DNA of 64,000 nucleotides from an uncultured Bacteroidales bacterium (lineage in GTDB: Bacteria; Bacteroidota; Bacteroidia; Bacteroidales; Paludibacteraceae): contig CACZCR010000002.1 in NCBI GenBank assembly GCA_902779705.1, positions 1 to 64,000 on the forward strand, in the 5' to 3' direction. How positions within the stretch are numbered: position 1 is the stretch's first letter; every line of letters starts with the position of its first letter. Of this stretch, positions 2,810-44,693 are shown piece by piece. The notes beneath the pieces are model-generated. The model saw only the letters and a program-made list of their open reading frames with translations, was not told the origin of the DNA and ran no database searches. Made by a program: the position numbers and the translations under genes.

Positions 2810-5659
2810 CTATAATACAGCTTGAGCTATTATCTCAATTGGATGCAAGGCATGGATGCCCGTTAGATCGGCTATCTGGGTTCGGCAGGATGTACCGGGC
2901 GCTGCGACATAGATAGCAGGATTCGTTTCATGGGCTTGACGGATAGCAGGAATCAGAGTCGTATTGGCTACACGCACAGACTGCTCATAGTGTCTCTTCT
3001 CATATCCGAACGACCCCGCCATACCGCAACAGCCGGAAGGGATGACGTGCACCTCCAGTCCTTTGACCATGCGTAGCAAGGCAGCAGTTTTGTCTATTCC
3101 CACTAGTGCTTTCTGATGACAATGACCATGCAACCACAGTTCGCCATGCAACTCGCCTAGCGCCTCTTTGGCTAAGCGTCCAGCTTCTATTTCGCGCATC
3201 AGAAACTCGTCATACAGCAGACTATTCTTGCCCAGTAGTTGGGCTTCCTCGCGTAACGTTTCAGGCACCAAACGCGGGTATTCATCTCGGAAAGTAAGTA
3301 TACACGAAGGCTCTATGCCTACGAGAGGTGTATCGGCCGAAACGATACCTTTGAGAGCCATCACATTGCTTTTAGCGTACTGAGCGGCTTGACGCAGGCG
3401 TCCTTTGCTGATAGCAGCACGGCCACTTTGGGTATGCTTAGGCACAACTACCTGATAGCCCCATTTCTCCAATAAGCATGCAAACAGCGCTCCCAATTCT
3501 GCATCTTCATGGTCGGTAAACTCATCGGCAAACAAATAAACTAATTTACGTTTGGACGATTGACAATTTACAATTGTCTGGCTTTCCACCATTTGTCTCA
3601 TCGACCGACGCGACAGTGTAGGTATATGTCGTTCGGGCGCAAAACCTACGAGTTGTTTGATCAGTGCAGACATATAGCGATTGGTAGCGCACCAATTATA
3701 CAGACGCGGCATCCATGCACCCAGGTTCTCCATCTGCGGCATATGTGCAACTAGCCATGTGCGCCAAGGTGTGCCTGAACGGTCATAGCGAGTCTGCAAG
3801 ATCTCGCTGCGTATACGCGTCATATCCACATTGCTGGGGCACTCGGAATGGCAGGCTTTGCACGCCAGACACGAATCTAGTACTGTTGCCACCTCGTCGG
3901 AATAGATACCGTCGGGTGAATGGGTGATCATCTCGCGAAGGACATTGGCACGAGCACGGGTAGAGAACAGTTCGTCACCGGTAGCCTTATAGGCCGGGCA
4001 CATCGTTCCGCCCATCAATGCCGACTTGCGACAGTCGGCAGCGCCATTACACTGCTCTAATTGGTGGGATGATGGGGTGAGTGGATGAAGGGCTGAGGAA
4101 GTGTCCGCAAACTGGTCAAAACGCAGATATTGGTCCATCGGCGGGGTATGGACAATCTTGCCCATGTTGAACAGTCTATCAGGATCCCACAGATGTTTGA
4201 GTTGGCACATCATCTCATAGACTTCATCGCCATACATAAGGGGGATAAACTCTCCTCTAAGACGTCCATCACCGTGTTCGCCGGACAGACATCCGTGATG
4301 TTTCTTGACTAATGTTGCTGTTCGTTGAGCCACCTCACGGAAGAGTTGGCGATCATGTTCCTGGTGCAAGTCCAATACCGGACGAAGGTGTAGCTCGCCG
4401 GTAGATATATGTCCGTAGTAGACGCAGTCCAAGCCCAGTTGGTCCATCATAGCACGAAAGTCGTGCATATAGGCTTTCATTCGTTCGGGTGCGACAGCAG
4501 TATCCTCGACCACACCTACGGGTTTGGCATTGCCCGACATAGCGGACAGCACGCCCAATCCTGCTTTACGTAGTGCCCATACACGGTTAACATCCTGGCC
4601 GTATACCTTGGTGATGGTATGGGGTATGCCGGATTGCTGCATCGCTTGGATGAAACGATCGGCCTGTTTATCCAGTTCGGCAAGGCTATCAGCTTGAAAC
4701 TCCGCCACGATGATTGCTGCAGGCTGACCGTCTACGAAGAAGAGGTTTTGACTAGCCTCCCTATTGGTGCGTGCCAGTTCGATGATTCGTCCGTCGATCA
4801 GCTCAACCGCACAAGGATGGCTTTCCAGAGCAATGAGGTTGGTAGCCCAACTATCATCCATATGATTCAGATGCGCACACACAACCATCTGCTCGTGAGC
4901 CGGTAAGGGATCAAGCGAGAGGGTGATCTCTGTCACCAAACAGAGCGTGCCTTCGGAGCCTGTGATCAGTGCCGGCAGATTGAGCTCATCGGCTTCAAGG
5001 CACTCGTCCAACGCATAGCCACACGAGCGGCGACGAATCGTAGAATCCGGAAAAGCCTCCTTGAGACGCATCATTAGCGCTTGGTCAGTTTGCCATGTTT
5101 GTAGTTGGGCAAGAATCTGATTCAGCAGTTTGGACGGCTGTTCACTGGCCACAACAGAGCGACAATCCAGTTCATGCACCGAGCCGTCAGCGAGCATAAT
5201 ACGCAGTCCTACCACATGGTGACGCGTCGAGCCATAGACCAGGCTATGGGTACCGCAGGAGTTATTACCTACCATGCCACCTATGCAACAGCGGTTGGAG
5301 GTAGATGTCTCGGGCGAGAAGAACAGTCCGTAGGGTTGGAGTGCAAGGTTGAGTTCATCGCGTACGACTCCCGGTTGTACCCGTGCAGTACGATGTTCAG
5401 GGTCGATAGCGACAATACGGTTCATATAGCGGCTGATATCCACCACTATACCTTCTCCTACTACTTGTCCTGCGATGCTTGTTCCACCGGCACGGGGGAT
5501 GAGATGCGTATGGCGGCGACGTGCCTCATTGAGCAGATCGCGCAAGTCATCCTCAGTCTGAGGATAAGCGACCGCCATTGGCATTTGACGGTACGCGCTA
5601 GCATCGGTCGCATACGCTATACGGTGCAGCGCATCGGTATATAATTGACAGTTGGACAA
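2810..5659 (-). CDS. FAD-linked oxidase fused to Fe-S/CCG-domain protein (GlcD-GlcF type D-2-hydroxyacid dehydrogenase)
   Basis: At 949 residues this is a two-part dehydrogenase. Residues about 25-470 form a PCMH-type FAD domain (RAGGTSIAGQ at 56-65) with an FAD-oxidase C domain holding YGHISTGELHLRP. A linker follows, then ferredoxin-like cysteines (CNGAADC near 540, CLACKACHSECP near 595) and two CCG-type cysteine motifs (GIEPSC, then SGCCGMAG near 876). Family members oxidise D-lactate or glycolate and pass electrons to quinones; the substrate here is open. The N-terminus is odd. No ATG lies before LYTDALHR, and the frame begins in an A-family repeat, so a TTG at 5659 is the likeliest start. 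In-frame repeats also occur at residues 519-534 and 694-703. It is the last gene of the operon starting at 7960. Confidence 0.85.
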   Translation of the reverse strand: MSNCQLYTDALHRIAYATDASAYRQMPMAVAYPQTEDDLRDLLNEARRRHTHLIPRAGGTSIAGQVVGEGIVVDISRYMNRIVAIDPEHRTARVQPGVVRDELNLALQPYGLFFSPETSTSNRCCIGGMVGNNSCGTHSLVYGSTRHHVVGLRIMLADGSVHELDCRSVVASEQPSKLLNQILAQLQTWQTDQALMMRLKEAFPDSTIRRRSCGYALDECLEADELNLPALITGSEGTLCLVTEITLSLDPLPAHEQMVVCAHLNHMDDSWATNLIALESHPCAVELIDGRIIELARTNREASQNLFFVDGQPAAIIVAEFQADSLAELDKQADRFIQAMQQSGIPHTITKVYGQDVNRVWALRKAGLGVLSAMSGNAKPVGVVEDTAVAPERMKAYMHDFRAMMDQLGLDCVYYGHISTGELHLRPVLDLHQEHDRQLFREVAQRTATLVKKHHGCLSGEHGDGRLRGEFIPLMYGDEVYEMMCQLKHLWDPDRLFNMGKIVHTPPMDQYLRFDQFADTSSALHPLTPSSHQLEQCNGAADCRKSALMGGTMCPAYKATGDELFSTRARANVLREMITHSPDGIYSDEVATVLDSCLACKACHSECPSNVDMTRIRSEILQTRYDRSGTPWRTWLVAHMPQMENLGAWMPRLYNWCATNRYMSALIKQLVGFAPERHIPTLSRRSMRQMVESQTIVNCQSSKRKLVYLFADEFTDHEDAELGALFACLLEKWGYQVVVPKHTQSGRAAISKGRLRQAAQYAKSNVMALKGIVSADTPLVGIEPSCILTFRDEYPRLVPETLREEAQLLGKNSLLYDEFLMREIEAGRLAKEALGELHGELWLHGHCHQKALVGIDKTAALLRMVKGLEVHVIPSGCCGMAGSFGYEKRHYEQSVRVANTTLIPAIRQAHETNPAIYVAAPGTSCRTQIADLTGIHALHPIEIIAQAVL
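3551..3578 (-). repeat. A-family 15-base repeat, in frame inside the dehydrogenase
   Basis: The coding strand reads ATTGTAAATTGT then CAATCGTCCAAACGT, encoding IVNC-QSSKR-K between conserved parts of the C-terminal Fe-S module. Same unit, frame and orientation as the copies at 41850 and 43940. Confidence 0.65.
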
Positions 5660-5680
5660 TTTACGATTTACAATTATTAC
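5642..5680 (-). repeat. A-family repeat at a gene junction, covering a stop and a start
   Basis: On the minus strand the repeat carries the TAA stop of the sugar transferase (5677-5679) and the probable TTG start of the dehydrogenase (5657-5659). In the dehydrogenase frame it reads IIVNR-KLSNC-QL, the same pentapeptide pattern as the in-gene copies. Confidence 0.65.
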
Positions 5681-31955: not shown

Positions 31956-32041
31956 CGCACATAGGGCGAGGATAGTGCTTATTTGCAATGTTCGGAGCTT
32001 TCGCTCCTAGTCGAGGACGTAATCAAACTCGCCGGGATAGC

Positions 32042-32137
32042 GGCGAGAAGTGGACAGCGGGGGGAAGGGGGCCACTAATCGATAGTAGCGGCGAGGAGTG
32101 GACAGCAGGGGGAAGGGGGCCACTAATCGATAGTAGC
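32042..32137. repeat. 48-base direct tandem duplication including a gene end
   Basis: Units 32042-32089 and 32090-32137 differ at two positions. The second unit includes the last codons (LATID) and stop of the C_GCAxxG gene, so the first unit is a copy of the gene's tail placed behind it. Confidence 0.85.
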
Positions 32138-32527
32138 GAGGAAGGTGCGGACGGATTGGGCGACCATGTCGGCGCAGGGTTGTTTGTTGGCCAGCAACTC
32201 GGAGCAGATAAGGCTGCCATAGGTGGCCTTGAACTGCCCGCCAAGGTCCTTGACCAAGGCATAATTGGCCATCTTACCGTCATGGTCGTGCGGCGTAGAA
32301 GAGCCGTTGTGCAAACCGGCCAACATAAACATTCCGCTGGCAGCACCACAGACGAGTCGCATGCGTCCCATACCGCCACCAAACGAAGACGAGAGCCGCA
32401 ACGCCATTTTCTCGTCCAGTCCATAGAGATCGGCACAAGAGGCGAAGACCGCCTGACTGCAGTTGAAACCTTGTTTGAAGAGTTCTACGGCACGTTGAGC
32501 GCGTTGTTCGATCTGGGATTCAGTCAT
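32123..32527 (-). CDS. C_GCAxxG_C_C family redox protein
   Basis: At 134 residues, with the family's full cysteine pattern: FNCSQAVFASC, LVCGAASGMFML, and SLICSELL with a following Cys. These small cytoplasmic proteins are predicted to be redox active or metal binding and often sit beside transporters or methyltransferases; none of that is proven here. It starts 2 bases after the TrmH-type gene, so the pair is an operon. Its last codons are duplicated downstream (32042-32137). Confidence 0.88.
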   Translation of the reverse strand: MTESQIEQRAQRAVELFKQGFNCSQAVFASCADLYGLDEKMALRLSSSFGGGMGRMRLVCGAASGMFMLAGLHNGSSTPHDHDGKMANYALVKDLGGQFKATYGSLICSELLANKQPCADMVAQSVRTFLATID

Positions 32528-32529
32528 AG

Positions 32530-33348
32530 CTATACAGTTTTGGGGCGGCGGAACTCGGCCAAGATGATAGCCGTAGCAATTGCTACATTCAGGCTCTCAG
32601 AAGTCGGTTCGCCGGGTGGATAAGAAGGGATAAGCAGCGGATGGGTGATCAAGCGTCGCACCTCGGGCGAGATGCCGTTACCCTCGTTGCCCATGACTAT
32701 TATAGACCGCTGCGCGAATAGACCGCGTTGCTGTAGGACCGCTGACGCTGTAGGACCGCTCTGCTGTAAGACCGCTTCGCTGTAAGACCGTCCTTCGGAC
32801 TGTAAGACTTCATACATATTGCGGCCGTCCAATAACGTTCCATAGATGGGAACGGGTGATTGTTGTATTGATGTATTGTTGTATTGTTGTAGCCACTGGG
32901 GCAAGTCAACGTAATGGATGCGAACACGGGCGAGGGCGCCCATGGTGGCCTGAACAACCTTAGGGTTGTAGCAATCGGCCGTATCGAGCGAGCAGTAGAT
33001 ATCACGCACGCCGAACCAATCGCACGTGCGGATGATAGTGCCGAGGTTGCCGGGGTCTTGGATGCCGTCGAGGGCGAGGATTAGATCGGCTTCGCCTGAA
33101 AGACCGTCCTCCGGACTGTAAGACGGTTTGCGGAAGACGCCGATGACGCCTTGCGGGGTGCGCAGGGAGGAGAGTTGGGCGATAACGGTAGACCCCACTT
33201 CGGCCTCGGTGATGAGGGCCTCAAGCTGGTAGGTCTTACGCAGTTCGTCCACGCACTTCTGCCCCTCGGCCAAGAAGAGCCCGAGTTGGTCGCGGAACTT
33301 CTTGTGCTGCAGGCTGCGATATGTCTTGAGTTGAGCTTTGGTAAGCAT
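32530..33348 (-). CDS. TrmH/SpoU family RNA 2'-O-methyltransferase
   Basis: At 272 residues: an N-terminal substrate-binding domain (QHKKFRDQLGLFLAEGQKCVDEL) and a knotted SPOUT domain with LALDGIQDPGNLGTIIRTCDWFG, IIVMGNEGNGIS and LLIPSYPPGEPTSESLNVAIATAI. It methylates a ribose in rRNA or tRNA with S-adenosylmethionine; position unknown. Three repeat insertions interrupt otherwise conserved sequence: YSPEDGLSGE (75-83), QQYNNTSIQQ (152-162) and a long one at 179-208 (SEGRSYSEAVLQQSGPT and on). All three keep the frame. Confidence 0.9.
   Translation of the reverse strand: MLTKAQLKTYRSLQHKKFRDQLGLFLAEGQKCVDELRKTYQLEALITEAEVGSTVIAQLSSLRTPQGVIGVFRKPSYSPEDGLSGEADLILALDGIQDPGNLGTIIRTCDWFGVRDIYCSLDTADCYNPKVVQATMGALARVRIHYVDLPQWLQQYNNTSIQQSPVPIYGTLLDGRNMYEVLQSEGRSYSEAVLQQSGPTASAVLQQRGLFAQRSIIVMGNEGNGISPEVRRLITHPLLIPSYPPGEPTSESLNVAIATAIILAEFRRPKTV
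32724..32813 (-). repeat. H-family repeats inside the methyltransferase
   Basis: The plus strand repeats ctgtaggaccg or ctgtaagaccg five times with short spacers, ending in the small palindrome gtccttcggac. A partial copy (aagaccgtcctccggactgtaagac) is at 33099-33125 in the same gene. Both are read through in frame. Confidence 0.75.
33099..33125 (-). repeat. second H-family copy in the methyltransferase
   Basis: Matches 32788-32813 at all but a couple of positions, including gtcctccggac; encodes SYSPEDGLS. Confidence 0.7.
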
Positions 33349-38334: not shown

Positions 38335-39132
38335 CTACTTAAATATTGAGTTGATTAGTTGTGCAAGACGAATGCCGGCGCAATAGAGTTGGTACTCCAT
38401 CGGTTGGTGCCAGTGGTAGATATAGTGGTAGGTGTTACCATCCCAGGTGGTCTGGTAGTTATAGATATCGGACGTCAGATGATAGGTCTGGAGCGTGAGG
38501 TCCTCCCACGAAGCCTTCTCTATCTCACGACGACGGTCGCCATAGGTGTCCTCCAGAAACTGCGCATACTCGGTATAAGAGTAGCCTTGCGACTCGATGA
38601 GTTTGCCGTCCCATACAGAGTGGAGGTTGGTGTCTCGGCCAAACCATTTCATCCGTACGGCATTACCGCCCTTGTCGTCCATGTGCGCCATATGCATCGG
38701 GCAGAACCGGTCGCCTGTGAGGTGAACGATAAACCGCATGGTATGCGGATTGATTTCAAATTTATGATTTATGATTTCAAGTTGGAGGCTATCCAAGGCA
38801 CGGAACAGGTTTCCGCCTTCGGCAGGATAATGGGTCATCGTCTCAATGACCTGTTGGTCGGTCAGCCCGGCATCGAGATCCTGATAGTGCCACCCGTCGC
38901 GGATGGACTCCGGGTAGATAGTGTCGGACTTGATCTCATCCGGCCAATTGGCCCAATAGATGACACCATGGGTGCCGAGGAGGTTGTCTACTTGCTTGCG
39001 CGCTTTGGAACTTAGGTGGGAGTATGCCACCTGAGCAATGATGCGGTGTCCGGCTTGTCCCCAAGCCCAAACGGGCGTGGAGGGGAGCAGCGACATCGCA
39101 ATGGTAGCGAGAAGAATCAGAGTACGTTTCAT
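38335..39132 (-). CDS. S1/P1-type nuclease
   Basis: At 265 residues: a signal peptide whose cleavage (VWA-WGQAGHR) would leave tryptophan as residue 1, needed because its amino group binds zinc in S1/P1 enzymes. Other ligands fit: the His in GQAGH, WPDEIK (Asp), RDGWHYQDLD (His), FIVHLTGDRFCPMHM (His, Asp, His) and NLHSVWDGKLIE (His, Asp). Such three-zinc enzymes cut single-stranded RNA and DNA and release 5' nucleotides outside the cytoplasm. An E-family repeat gives residues 117-127 (LEIINHKFEI). The start overlaps the stop of the AraC-type gene (ATGA). Confidence 0.9.
   Translation of the reverse strand: MKRTLILLATIAMSLLPSTPVWAWGQAGHRIIAQVAYSHLSSKARKQVDNLLGTHGVIYWANWPDEIKSDTIYPESIRDGWHYQDLDAGLTDQQVIETMTHYPAEGGNLFRALDSLQLEIINHKFEINPHTMRFIVHLTGDRFCPMHMAHMDDKGGNAVRMKWFGRDTNLHSVWDGKLIESQGYSYTEYAQFLEDTYGDRRREIEKASWEDLTLQTYHLTSDIYNYQTTWDGNTYHYIYHWHQPMEYQLYCAGIRLAQLINSIFK
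38752..38783 (-). repeat. E-family repeat inside the S1/P1 nuclease
   Basis: Plus strand gatttcaaatttatgatttatgatttc; encodes EIINHKFEI in frame just before the conserved metal-binding helix. Confidence 0.55.
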
Positions 39133-39980
39133 TTGGTTTCTCGTCTGATAGCTAATGGTGATTTGCCTGTATGTTTTTTGACGTATTGGCAGAAGAAACT
39201 GCTGTTAGGGAAATGGAGGTCATAGGCGATCTCCTTGACGCTGAGCTGCGTCGTCCGCAGCAGTCGTACTATCTCGGTCATCGTGACCTCAGCAATCCAG
39301 TCGGTAGGCAGCTTGCCGCTACACTGTTTGCAGATCTCGGTCAGATACTTGGGGGTGATACCTATCTTCTCGGCAAAGAACTGCACCTCGCGCTGGTTAG
39401 AATTGGCTTGCAGCAACGTCATAAAGCGTCTGAAGATGATATCCGACTGGCGTATATTGGCCCTTTCCTCAAGCGTAGAAGGCAGATGAAGCTCGTGGTC
39501 GAGCATATGGAGTATCTCCATAACCGAGGCATGGGCTATAGCTTGCAGTATATGGTGTCGATAGGAGGTATCGGCCTGCATTATCTTGAGTCGGAACAGC
39601 GTATGGTAGGACTCAAGCAGGCGGCGCTGTTCGTCATTGAGATGGATGACGGGATTGGAGCGCAACAGCTGCTGTTTCTCCCACCAATAGGGCTCCATAC
39701 GGAAGCACTCGAAGAAGATATCCTCGTAGATCTGGCTCTTGGCGCGCAGCAGATAGAACTGAAAATCATAGGAGGGCGTCATCGAGCGGATAAACGTACG
39801 GGGCATCACTATCTGCAGGTCACCCGACTGAAGCTCCAGTTCACGCGACTCCAACTTGATACGCACCGACCCTTTGCGGCAATAGATCAGACTGGTCGTA
39901 TCGCCCAAACGATAGTTGGTCTTGCGCGACAAGTCCTCGATGGAGCTTGTCAGAAACACATTGTCTATTTTTTGCGCCAT
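39129..39980 (-). CDS. AraC family transcriptional regulator
   Basis: At 283 residues. The N-terminal 150 residues form a cupin-like sensor (YCRKGSVRIKLESRELELQSGDLQIVMP). The C-terminal 100 residues hold two helix-turn-helix motifs (QFFAEKIGITPKYLTEICKQ and SVKEIAYDLHFPNSSFFCQY) ending in the usual KKHTGKSPLAIRR. Its stop overlaps the nuclease start by 4 bases, so it is made together with the nuclease and is the natural candidate regulator of the nuclease-receptor-lipoprotein-channel genes. The inducer is unknown. Confidence 0.92.
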   Translation of the reverse strand: MAQKIDNVFLTSSIEDLSRKTNYRLGDTTSLIYCRKGSVRIKLESRELELQSGDLQIVMPRTFIRSMTPSYDFQFYLLRAKSQIYEDIFFECFRMEPYWWEKQQLLRSNPVIHLNDEQRRLLESYHTLFRLKIMQADTSYRHHILQAIAHASVMEILHMLDHELHLPSTLEERANIRQSDIIFRRFMTLLQANSNQREVQFFAEKIGITPKYLTEICKQCSGKLPTDWIAEVTMTEIVRLLRTTQLSVKEIAYDLHFPNSSFFCQYVKKHTGKSPLAIRRETK

Positions 39981-39990
39981 AATGGTATTA

Positions 39991-40035
39991 CGAATTGACG
40001 ATTGGACGATTTACAATTGACGATTTAAGATTAGG
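39991..40035 (-). repeat. A-family repeat between the BadF-type kinase and the AraC gene
   Basis: Plus strand units gaattgacgattgg, acgatttacaattg and acgatttaagatt; includes the kinase's stop codon. Sense orientation relative to transcription, as in the other A-family copies. Confidence 0.65.
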
Positions 40036-41074: not shown

Positions 41075-42478
41075 ATGATATCCAGTTTTCTTCTTCCCGG
41101 ACGTGTATGCAGTACGCAAGCCATCCGTGAGATAGCAGCCCAGTCAAAAACAACGTACACGATGATTCAGTTGAAGCCCGATATCGAATGGGTCTATCTG
41201 GGTCAGGAACGCATGGTACAAGTGATCGAAATGACCAATGCAACGATGGTATATGCAGATCACTTTGCCAAGATCAACGATGTTGTGACCGAAGCACCGG
41301 TGATTGACTACCAGCAGGGTGCGCTGCGGGATGATTTTGATTTCGGCGCTGTCATGCTCTGGCGTACCGACCGTCTCCAAGCACTAGTCGCACAGATGGA
41401 TACGGAATACGAGTTCGCAGGGCTGTATGACCTGCGACTAAGGGCAACTGAACCGAATGGCCATACGGGTGGCGAGCCTCTCGTCCATGTACCAGAGTAC
41501 ATATACTACGAAGTAGAGACCGACACACGTAAGTCCGGTGAGAAGTTGTTTGACTATGTCAACCCGAGCAATAGGCAGGTGCAGATCGAGATGGAGCAAT
41601 GCGTCACCGCCCATCTCAAACGCATAGGCGCCTACCTCCAACCGGGTGTCTATAAAGAGCTTCCTGTAACCGATACCCCCTACCCCGTAACCGCCAGTGT
41701 AATCATACCTTGTAAAAATCGCGCACGCACGATAGGAGATGCTATCCGTAGTGCGCTAAACCAGCAAGTACGCGAAGGCTACTCGTTCAACGTGATCGTA
41801 GTAGATGACAACTCCACCGACGGTTCAATCGACATAATTAACCAAATCATCAATCAATTGTCCAATCGTCAATCGTCCAATCGTCAATTGATTTATATTC
41901 CTCAGGACAAGACTTGGCACGCGATAGGTGGTAACTGGAACGTGGCTATCCACGACCCGCGATGCGGTAAGTATGCCATCCAACTCGACTCAGACGACAC
42001 CTATTTTGATGAGACGACCGTACAAAAGTTCATTGACAAATTTGCCGGTTTAGAACCGGAGCAAGATAGCCATGCGGCCCCGCAATATGGTATGGTGATC
42101 GGCACCTATCAGTTGACCAATATGGCGGGCGAGACCCTTCCTCCGGGAGTGATTGACCATAGAGAGTGGACCGACGACAACGGACGCAACAATGCCCTGC
42201 GTATCAACGGACTGGGTGCCCCGCGTGGATTCTATGTGCCGCTGCTGCGCACCATCAACTACCCCACCACCAAGTACGGCGAAGACTATGCCGTCGGCTT
42301 GCGCATCAGCCGCGAATACCCTATCGGGCGCATCTATGACGTCGTCTATAATTGCCGCCGTTGGGAGGACAACTCCGATGCCAACTGCGATATCGTAGCG
42401 ATGAACCGCAATAACTGGTACAAAGACAGACTTAGAACTTTTGAACTCTTGGCAAGACTTCAAAGTTCTAAGATTTAA
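41075..42478 (+). CDS. family 2 glycosyltransferase with an extra N-terminal domain
   Basis: At 467 residues. The GT-A core starts near 205: [47 protein letters not shown] (the DxD metal site) and [12 protein letters not shown]. The first 200 residues are a separate domain with few landmarks ([26 protein letters not shown]), seen in relatives next to SpoIID-like genes in this phylum. Substrate unknown. Residues 259-273 ([12 protein letters not shown]) derive from an A-family repeat inserted between core strands. Confidence 0.8.
41850..41893 (+). repeat. A-family 15-base repeat inside the glycosyltransferase
   Basis: CAATTGTCCAATCGT, CAATCGTCCAATCGT and CAATTG run in tandem, giving pentapeptides [10 protein letters not shown] and QL in frame. 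This is the clearest copy of the unit. Confidence 0.85.
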
Positions 42479-42506: not shown

Positions 42507-43531
42507 ATATCCGTGTAGGGATATTAACAGCTCCGCATATCGAGTTCGAGCAACGGGAAAAGACGTTCATTCTAAAGAATGTCCGTATCGGTATTGGTTT
42601 TCACTGGGATAGGTTCGAAGATCAAGAATTTGCCGGCAAACTAACTATTCGCAACAACCCCGACGGCACACAAACAGCCATCAACACCATCGATCTGGAA
42701 GACTATATCTGTTCGGTCATCTCATCAGAGATGAACGCCAGCAGCCCCATGGAGCTGCTGAAAGCACACGCAGTCATCAGCCGTTCATGGGCACTACGCG
42801 CGATGCAACACCCGAACCATGAAGGTTTTCACGTTTGTGCCGACGATCATTGCCAGCGGTACGAAGGGCTGCTAAGAATGAACCAACGGGCTGTAGAAGC
42901 CGTACGAGCAACCGCTGGACAAGTGCTGATGTGCGGCGATGAGATCTGTGACTGCCGGTATCATAAGTGTTGCGGCGGGCGAACAGAGATCTGGCGGACG
43001 TGTTGGGAAGACAAGGATGTGCCGTATATCCAATCTGTGCAATGCGACTACTGTAAAAATCCTTCACCCGACATCCTGCGTCTGGTGCTCAATGATTATG
43101 ACCAAGAGACCAAGGATTTTCATGATTGGACCGTGCGATATAAGGACGAGGAATTAGATGCTATTATTGCGGAAAAGTCCGGTATCGATTTTGGGCATAT
43201 TACTGCTTTAGTCCCCCTTCATCGCGGAGCGAGTGGACGTATTGACCGCCTCAAGATCGTCGGCACCAAGCGTACCGAAGAGATCGGCAAAGAGTTGAAG
43301 ATCCGGCTGTGGCTCAGCAAGAGTTGTCTGTATAGCAGTTGGTTTGAAGTCTCCCATACCCCGTCTCCCGTAACCGGTGAGCCCTCATGGACACTGATCG
43401 GCCACGGCTGGGGGCACGGTGCCGGACTATGTCAGATAGGCGCAGCAGTTATGGCAAGCGAAGGACACACATACGAACAAATACTGGCTCATTACTATGT
43501 CGGTTCAAGACTTAGCGTTGCAACGCTCTAA
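42503..43531 (+). CDS. SpoIID/LytB domain protein
   Basis: At 342 residues, starting at TTG because a stop lies directly upstream and no ATG precedes the conserved NIRVGIL. SpoIID domain signatures: LEDYICSVISSEMNASSPMELLKAHAVISRSWAL, VRATAGQVL, CCGGRTE, and the terminal GHGWGHGAGLCQIGAAVMA. SpoIID proteins are lytic transglycosylases that trim denuded peptidoglycan; the enhancer LytB shares the domain. No signal peptide is visible, which is odd for a wall enzyme but common for this cytoplasmic-looking Bacteroidetes version. It overlaps the next gene by 35 bases. Confidence 0.85.
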   Translation: MNIRVGILTAPHIEFEQREKTFILKNVRIGIGFHWDRFEDQEFAGKLTIRNNPDGTQTAINTIDLEDYICSVISSEMNASSPMELLKAHAVISRSWALRAMQHPNHEGFHVCADDHCQRYEGLLRMNQRAVEAVRATAGQVLMCGDEICDCRYHKCCGGRTEIWRTCWEDKDVPYIQSVQCDYCKNPSPDILRLVLNDYDQETKDFHDWTVRYKDEELDAIIAEKSGIDFGHITALVPLHRGASGRIDRLKIVGTKRTEEIGKELKIRLWLSKSCLYSSWFEVSHTPSPVTGEPSWTLIGHGWGHGAGLCQIGAAVMASEGHTYEQILAHYYVGSRLSVATL

Positions 43532-44693
43532 ATACAAGCACCTCAGCGACGAAGAGTGGCGCTGGTTTCTGCAGCAAGCAGAGGGACGCGAACGGACAGC
43601 AGACAAGTTGCCCACGTTTGCAGCTATAGAGGAATGGTGGTATCCCGTTCGCCTCAGTTGCGAACAATGTTCGTCAGAACTCGCCGCAAAATACAAAGCC
43701 AAAATCGTTGCAAGCCAGCCCCCCCCCAACCCCCTCTCAAAGGGGGAGGAAAATGTTGCAAGTAGTATGGTAGACTTGACGGGAGGATATGGAGTAGATA
43801 CATATTTCTTAAGCGAATCCTTTGCCCATACCGACTATGTGGAGCAGAATGCCGAGTTATGCCGCATAGCCACGCACAATTTCTTCCATAAGCCCATTTC
43901 AATCCATAACACTACCGCCGAAGATTTTCTAACAAAAAGCCAAATCGTAAATTGTAAATCGTCAAATCGTAAATCGGAATATGACCTTATCTATATTGAT
44001 CCGGCACGGCGGGACAGTCATGGCGGCAAAGTGTTTCGATTGGAGGACTGTACGCCCAATGTGGTAGAGCTGTTGCCTACTCTACTCAACCACCTCACAC
44101 CCAACGGCAGACTGATGCTCAAACTATCACCTATGTTGGACCTCACGCAAGCCGTAAAAAGTCTTTCACAGGTAACCTGGGACATCCATGTGGTAGCCAT
44201 CAAAAACGAGGTCAAAGAAGTGCTCTTACTAAGCGGGGGTGCATCAAAGATCACCGCAATTGATCTCGACCACCCTGATCAGGCTTTTGTATTCACCCGC
44301 GAGGAAGAACAGGATTGCAGATTGGTAAATGGTACATGCGAAAATGGTAAATGGCTTTATGAGCCGAATGCAGCGATTTTGAAGGCCGGCGCATATAAGA
44401 CTATTGCCACACGGTTGAGTTTACACAAAGCTGCGCCGAATACCCATCTCTACCTATCCGACAGTTTGGTAGAGTCTTTTCCCGGCCGTGTATGGCGAAT
44501 CGTTAAGACGATCAAGGACCGCAAAGACCTGCCGGAAGGAATCAAGCAGGCCAATGTGATCACACGCAACTATCCTTTGAAGGCAGAGCAACTAAAAAAA
44601 CACCTCCGCCTGAATGACGGAGGTGCTGAATATATCATCGGATTTCGGATGATGGACAAGCCAACAGTCGTGCTTGCCGAGCGTATTCAATAG
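43497..44693 (+). CDS. class I SAM-dependent methyltransferase with THUMP-like C-terminus
   Basis: At 398 residues. The Rossmann methyltransferase starts MVDLTGGYGVDTYFLSE, with YDLIYIDPARRD as the catalytic DPAR motif and LTPNGRLMLKLSPMLDL following. The C-terminal THUMP-like part includes KAGAYKTIATR and NVITRNYPLKAEQLKKHLRL. RNA is the expected substrate. Three repeat families invade it without breaking the frame: QPPPNPLSKGEE (75-87), QIVNCKSSNRKS (148-160) and LVNGTCENGKWL (273-286). Each falls between conserved blocks. Confidence 0.85.
   Translation: MSVQDLALQRSKYKHLSDEEWRWFLQQAEGRERTADKLPTFAAIEEWWYPVRLSCEQCSSELAAKYKAKIVASQPPPNPLSKGEENVASSMVDLTGGYGVDTYFLSESFAHTDYVEQNAELCRIATHNFFHKPISIHNTTAEDFLTKSQIVNCKSSNRKSEYDLIYIDPARRDSHGGKVFRLEDCTPNVVELLPTLLNHLTPNGRLMLKLSPMLDLTQAVKSLSQVTWDIHVVAIKNEVKEVLLLSGGASKITAIDLDHPDQAFVFTREEEQDCRLVNGTCENGKWLYEPNAAILKAGAYKTIATRLSLHKAAPNTHLYLSDSLVESFPGRVWRIVKTIKDRKDLPEGIKQANVITRNYPLKAEQLKKHLRLNDGGAEYIIGFRMMDKPTVVLAERIQ
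43718..43757 (+). repeat. G-family palindromic repeat inside the methyltransferase
   Basis: A run of nine Cs and cccctctcaaagggggagg form a hairpin-capable element; encodes PPPNPLSKGEE. Same family as 10546-10606 in the TonB receptor. Confidence 0.7.
43940..43977 (+). repeat. A-family 15-base repeat inside the methyltransferase
   Basis: CAAATCGTAAATTGT then AAATCGTCAAATCGT then AAATCG; read as QIVNC-KSSNR-KS. Confidence 0.8.
44316..44354 (+). repeat. C-family repeat inside the methyltransferase
   Basis: Degenerate ggtaaatgg units, encoding RLVNGTCENGKW. Confidence 0.5.

Follow-up and report, generated by a model that had tools for sequence, protein, structure and literature searches.

AATYGTM heptamer arrays as a probable very small dispersed mobile repeat in a Paludibacteraceae genome

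Introduction

Tandem arrays of the heptamer AATYGTM, reported here from an uncultured member of the Bacteroidales, have several counterparts among short bacterial repeats. Rickettsia palindromic elements are palindromic sequences of about 100-150 bp that encode in-frame peptides in unrelated proteins. The parallel is a loose one: a single AATYGTM family likewise gives in-frame peptides in unrelated genes, but its arrays are about 28 nt long and its unit is non-palindromic. Another looser parallel is offered by the small dispersed repeats (SDRs, for example SDR5) of cyanobacteria from the work of Elhai et al. in 2008, reportedly very small mobile repeats with no identified mover. AATYGTM shares the small size, the probable mobility and the lack of an identified mover. 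SDR5 is reported to insert at an exact position within the HIP1 site (PMC4390886); no such sequence target came to notice for AATYGTM. REP/REPIN elements are palindromic and tied to a Y1 (RAYT) transposase (PMC3116915); AATYGTM resembles them in being short, dispersed within the genome and often placed between genes, but it is not palindromic and no Y1 transposase was found in the genome studied here.

Our literature searches returned two near cases only, PMC4679880 and PMC4596501. The latter describes BrickBuilt, a MITE/minisatellite of Porphyromonas gingivalis with a 23-nt unit and inverted-repeat ends that is always intergenic (PMC4596501). Both it and the AATYGTM arrays are tandem repeats inside a dispersed, species-specific element in Bacteroidales; the AATYGTM unit, however, is a heptamer, and some of its copies lie in genes.

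The closest described case is that of the TAACTGA heptamers, direct repeats found in marine Beggiatoaceae, cyanobacteria and a few Bacteroidetes including Paludibacter (MacGregor 2015, PMC4679880). These are mostly forward and directly ahead of start codons, with a commonest spacing of 1 nt; some overlap the upstream stop codon, one is reversed right after a stop codon, and some lie in open reading frames (ORFs) (PMC4679880). In forward orientation TAACTGA meets stops in every frame, and most of the copies contained entirely within ORFs are reversed (PMC4679880). AATYGTM arrays are likewise tandem heptamers, mostly intergenic, in one orientation and within several nucleotides of a start codon; both are sporadic among related species, have housekeeping genes among those downstream and lack a known mover. 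They differ in sequence, in the regular 7-7-8 steps and the composites of AATYGTM, in its spacing of 7-11 nt rather than 1 nt, and in its in-gene copies, mainly forward where those of TAACTGA are mainly reversed. By sequence AATYGTM thus falls outside the TAACTGA group and is a parallel to it, and it goes beyond TAACTGA in that the orthologous loops of its sites are shown to hold other families.

Results

The window, meaning the whole stretch of DNA that was analysed, covers 64,000 nt on contig 2 of a 1.82-Mb draft genome (G000; 16 contigs, 98% complete). The relatives that carry names are genomes of uncultured Paludibacteraceae/Bacteroidales, many of them from the ruminant gut. A preliminary description of this DNA had pointed to a short repeat recurring in unrelated proteins. 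We confirmed the repeat and identified its unit as the heptamer AATYGTM, now and then with one extra base, the 15-base unit being a 7-step plus an 8-step. Searches of the whole genome gave 82 matches to AATYGTCMAATYGT with at most one mismatch, compared to 2 for the reversed control, and 154 matches to AATYGTMAATYGT, compared to 7. The window itself contains 8 matches with up to three mismatches; the shuffle mean was 1.8 and 0 of 100 shuffles reached 8. Exact AATYGTM matches range from 0 to 101 across species of the genus, many of which have no or few copies. Genome counts come from pattern searches and from stretches fetched around repeat matches, so these regions are selected for carrying the repeat, and the array anatomy and strand counts given below for the window genome are among the one-mismatch matches listed. 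Detailed counts cover two species, the window genome and G002, as draft genomes with gene calls from a simple home-made codon-usage script.

The AATYGTM arrays of the window are as follows.

3548..3575, minus strand: in-gene array with 7-7-8-6 steps in an FAD-linked oxidase/4Fe-4S gene (2810-5659), encoding TIVNCQSSKRK
5641..5675, minus strand: array at the 5' end of the ORF for the FAD-linked oxidase
39990..40032, minus strand: sense array between genes, its end 9 nt ahead of the start codon of an AraC-type regulator gene (39129-39980)
41855..41891, plus strand: in-gene array with 8-7-8-7 steps (two 15-nt units and a partial) within a glycosyltransferase gene (41075-42478)
43943..43977, plus strand: in-gene array with 7-7-8-6 steps and one degenerate unit in a PG_1098-type/THUMP-like methyltransferase gene (43497-44693), encoding QIVNCKSSNRKS

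The three in-gene copies lie essentially where the preliminary description had placed them, all on the strand of their genes, and they share a frame, reading [CA]AA TCG TCM AAW CGT in each; the glycosyltransferase array encodes a 12-residue peptide (letters withheld). As that description had also held, the junction copies (5648-5675 and 39990-40032) are oriented like the genes beside them. Its argument that a length divisible by three helps the element to spread stands for the 15-nt form and is limited to it, because many copies are 28-nt 7-7-8-6 arrays. Nor is the element stop-free in its frame as a rule: many arrays have TAA at the joints between 7-mers. Among the in-gene copies of the window, the methyltransferase copy has one open frame only, and the glycosyltransferase and FAD-linked oxidase copies have two each. 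At its other array, the FAD-linked oxidase ORF has no ATG where its homologues begin, and its sole listed start is a TTG at 5659, inside the array, as if the array had replaced the start region.

Among the matches listed for the window genome, the commonest step order is 7-7-8, which gives a 28-nt array (7-7-8-6) and occurs in 22 intergenic sense, 3 in-gene sense and 3 antisense copies. A second form, 8-7-8, is mostly antisense, and G002 carries long (8-7)n arrays. The two orientations also come together in composites of about 105-110 bp, of which six near-identical ones were found; in each, an antisense 8-7-8 array is followed downstream by a sense array. All six composites found among the matches listed sit on two contigs of the window genome, C8 and C11 (L065, L066, L070, L071 and L074). 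Although their arms are related in inverted orientation, they are only partly complementary and are not matched copies; the AATYGTM unit itself is not palindromic. The fixed architecture at unlinked sites and the near-identical composites argue for copying as blocks. Inspection by eye of one composite, that between rimP and nusA, revealed no target-site duplication.

Most AATYGTM copies are intergenic and sense. Where a sense array stands beside a gene start, its last unit mostly ends 7-11 nt ahead of the start codon, with a commonest spacing of exactly 10 nt in the window genome and of 8 or 10 nt in G002. Among the matches listed in the two species, arrays that lie between co-directional genes and no more than 15 nt from a start codon are sense in 58 cases and antisense in 3, compared to 28 sense and 20 antisense among arrays farther than 15 nt from a start (Fisher 3e-6 for the contrast). 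Antisense intergenic arrays for the most part abut the stop codon of the gene before them or overlap it. Genes downstream, recognised by eye from their translations and not by database search, include groEL, enolase, ychF, rpsD, nusA, rseP, glyS, lptB, rny and ferritin, which are general housekeeping genes with no shared theme. Similar motifs occur near the start in the ychF leaders of several relatives; among the enolase leaders of relatives they occur in one (G068) and mostly not in the others.

Beside start codons, the A-rich strand is the sense one; in this genus leaders, those of repeat-free genes included, are A-rich as well. Sense arrays have less predicted structure than shuffled arrays, but predicted RNA folding at start sites showed no difference between the sense array and its reverse complement, which led us to reject weak folding of the RNA as the reason for the orientation. 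Because predicted folding does not separate sense from inverted arrays, the start-site rule comes down to A-richness alone, and we infer that the A-rich strand is retained for the sake of translation.

Inside genes, the matches listed in the two species comprise 22 sense and 3 antisense copies (7:2 and 15:1; two-sided binomial 1.6e-4). Of the 22 sense copies over the two species, 15 have the QSSNR-type frame, as judged by eye from the translations (p 9e-4). Over the two species, the counts proposed in the preliminary description thus depart from one half for strand and from one third for frame. A constant frame within the window's own genome was not shown; with 4 of 7 copies, that genome alone is uninformative.

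Stop codons alone do not account for the strand bias. The intergenic arrays have 155 open frames in sense and 164 in antisense, an expected sense share of 0.49, so equal strands are predicted and this explanation is rejected (p 4.5e-5). The in-gene inserts are also hydrophilic, with mean GRAVY of -0.93 and -1.31 compared to -0.06 and -0.62 for sense frames that are open in intergenic arrays. With the count restricted to hydrophilic open frames, at thresholds chosen after seeing the data, the expected sense share rises to 0.69-0.78, and 22 of 25 then shows no clear difference from it (p 0.03-0.15); without two weak antisense cases, a sense excess over this model persists (p 0.002-0.02). A preference for hydrophilicity added to an open frame therefore accounts for much of the in-gene strand bias, with a modest excess left. 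That AATYGTM is mainly forward in genes, whereas TAACTGA, with its forward stops, is mainly reversed, fits coding compatibility as the deciding factor.

We compared the sites with their orthologues. The methyltransferase copy is an 11-residue in-frame insertion, absent from most of the aligned orthologues, and the glycosyltransferase copy extends its loop by about 9 residues relative to many orthologues that share 77-82% identity. The FAD-linked oxidase copy sits in a hypervariable linker that holds different repeat-like peptides in different species. Ancient conservation of these peptides, which the preliminary description had named as evidence against its reading, is thus not what we find: two of the three copies are absent from most or many orthologues and the third is in a hypervariable linker. 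In other relatives the same methyltransferase loop carries other low-complexity peptides, as does a second loop that lies about 20 residues earlier in the protein. Methyltransferase orthologues (L119-L198) carry QSDNVRCT, PTPTLPKGKE, NSKLKIQNS, PLHGGKEGG and others in the two loops across species, and in L161 one of these peptides is repeated in a long tandem run. The rimP-nusA gap, about 8-20 nt in most relatives, holds a clean composite here and unrelated inserts in several relatives. That unrelated repeat families occupy the same loops and gaps across species argues that they do so because these sites are permissive.

A second, unrelated family has one copy in the window.

32704..32790, minus strand: second-family copy (AGACCGCTNCGCT type) within a SpoU methylase ORF (32530-33348), encoding SYSEAVLQQSGPTASAVLQQRGLFAQRS

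Genomes of the genus carry this AGACCGCTNCGCT family in 56 of 61 cases, with up to 182 copies compared to 0 for the control, and its copy numbers have no clear correlation with those of AATYGTM (Spearman 0.28, p 0.09). Related species have its SYSEAVLQQSG-like peptides in proteins unrelated to one another, and in G061 the family occupies the same glycosyltransferase loop that holds the AATYGTM array in the window genome. Inside genes it occurs in both orientations (17 opposite and 9 same), which argues against a general transcription-coupled rule and in favor of strand preference as a property of each family's sequence. For the constant orientation, the preliminary description had suggested either selection or a process that works on RNA or on the strand being transcribed. 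Selection is the better of the two, and such a process is not supported as a general rule. The region with the SpoU methylase is immediately adjoined, at 32038-32138, by 2.1 tandem copies, 96% alike, of a 48-base unit.

Discussion

AATYGTM is probably a very small dispersed mobile repeat, copied as blocks by a putative process and sieved by selection. Dispersal itself is shown, with counts far above control, and so are a fixed architecture, copy numbers that differ greatly between species and absence from orthologous sites. We propose that the 28-nt (7-7-8-6) array, sometimes as part of a composite of about 105-110 bp, would spread as a copied block within the genome, landing roughly without selectivity, and that selection would then sieve what stays. 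Between genes, survivors would be those in a short stop-to-start gap whose A-rich strand is the one read into mRNA, no more than about 15 nt from the start codon, with copies on the other strand surviving mostly beside stop codons. Inside genes, they would be those in variable loops with an open frame and a hydrophilic peptide (QSSNR/KSSNR), a requirement that would favor the sense strand and one frame. The AATYGTM bias fits such a sieve, acting on the encoded peptide in genes and on the translation start region between genes. As for the mover, a Y1/RAYT transposase was rejected, as no PF01797 match was found in the window genome, G002, G021 or G034.

The same start-site pattern could instead reflect a functional leader element, in which the sense array is an mRNA site for the initiating ribosome or for an RNA-binding protein of the S1, cold-shock or RRM type and owes its retention to regulating or boosting translation, with in-gene copies as by-products. 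Strict sense orientation and 7-11-nt spacing ahead of start codons in two species speak for it, as do the lower predicted structure of sense arrays relative to shuffled ones and the ychF leader motifs of relatives; the TAACTGA heptamers were given this very interpretation. We nevertheless consider it unlikely, given downstream housekeeping genes without a theme, the many species of the genus with no or few copies, the species that do without an array in the rimP-nusA gap, and predicted folding no better than that of the inverted array. Strand-directed insertion, with copying via RNA or on the transcription-exposed strand leading to sense landing in transcribed DNA, would account for both the 22:3 ratio in genes and the 58:3 ratio near starts, and the equal strands predicted from stop codons alone leave room for it. 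It appears quite improbable to us, because beyond 15 nt from a start the ratio falls to 28:20, the second family enters genes on both strands, and the hydrophilicity sieve covers much of the in-gene bias. We know of no candidate enzyme for it.

Still harder to sustain is a reading in which each array would have grown on its own by replication slippage from a short AT-rich seed, without block dispersal. The long (8-7)n arrays of G002 and an apparent weak 7-8-nt periodicity in relatives' leaders, present even without AATYGT, are what it would produce, and slippage may lengthen arrays. It leaves dispersal unexplained, however, as the same unit in the same 7-7-8 order occurs at many unlinked loci and the composites are near-identical; we therefore regard it as very improbable. 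A broader proposal, which we hold to be a long shot, is that several unrelated short repeat families of these Bacteroidales share one copying machinery that inserts blocks of about 15-110 nt, with the AATYGTM strand set by transcription or an RNA intermediate and selection only trimming.

If AATYGTM is indeed a block-copied repeat sieved by selection, compact bacterial genomes would be seeded by several tiny mobile repeat families with no known enzyme, which would alter the loops of housekeeping proteins and rebuild the gap ahead of start codons. Unrelated families reusing the same loops would provide a natural map of insertion-tolerant sites. The movement of elements shorter than 30 nt, an old question, would become testable in a genus with 0 to about 100 copies per species. 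Further families may await description as well: in the leaders of relatives (L119-L258 and L289-L334), the weak excess of matches falls at lags 7 and 8, hinting at additional heptamer or octamer repeats.
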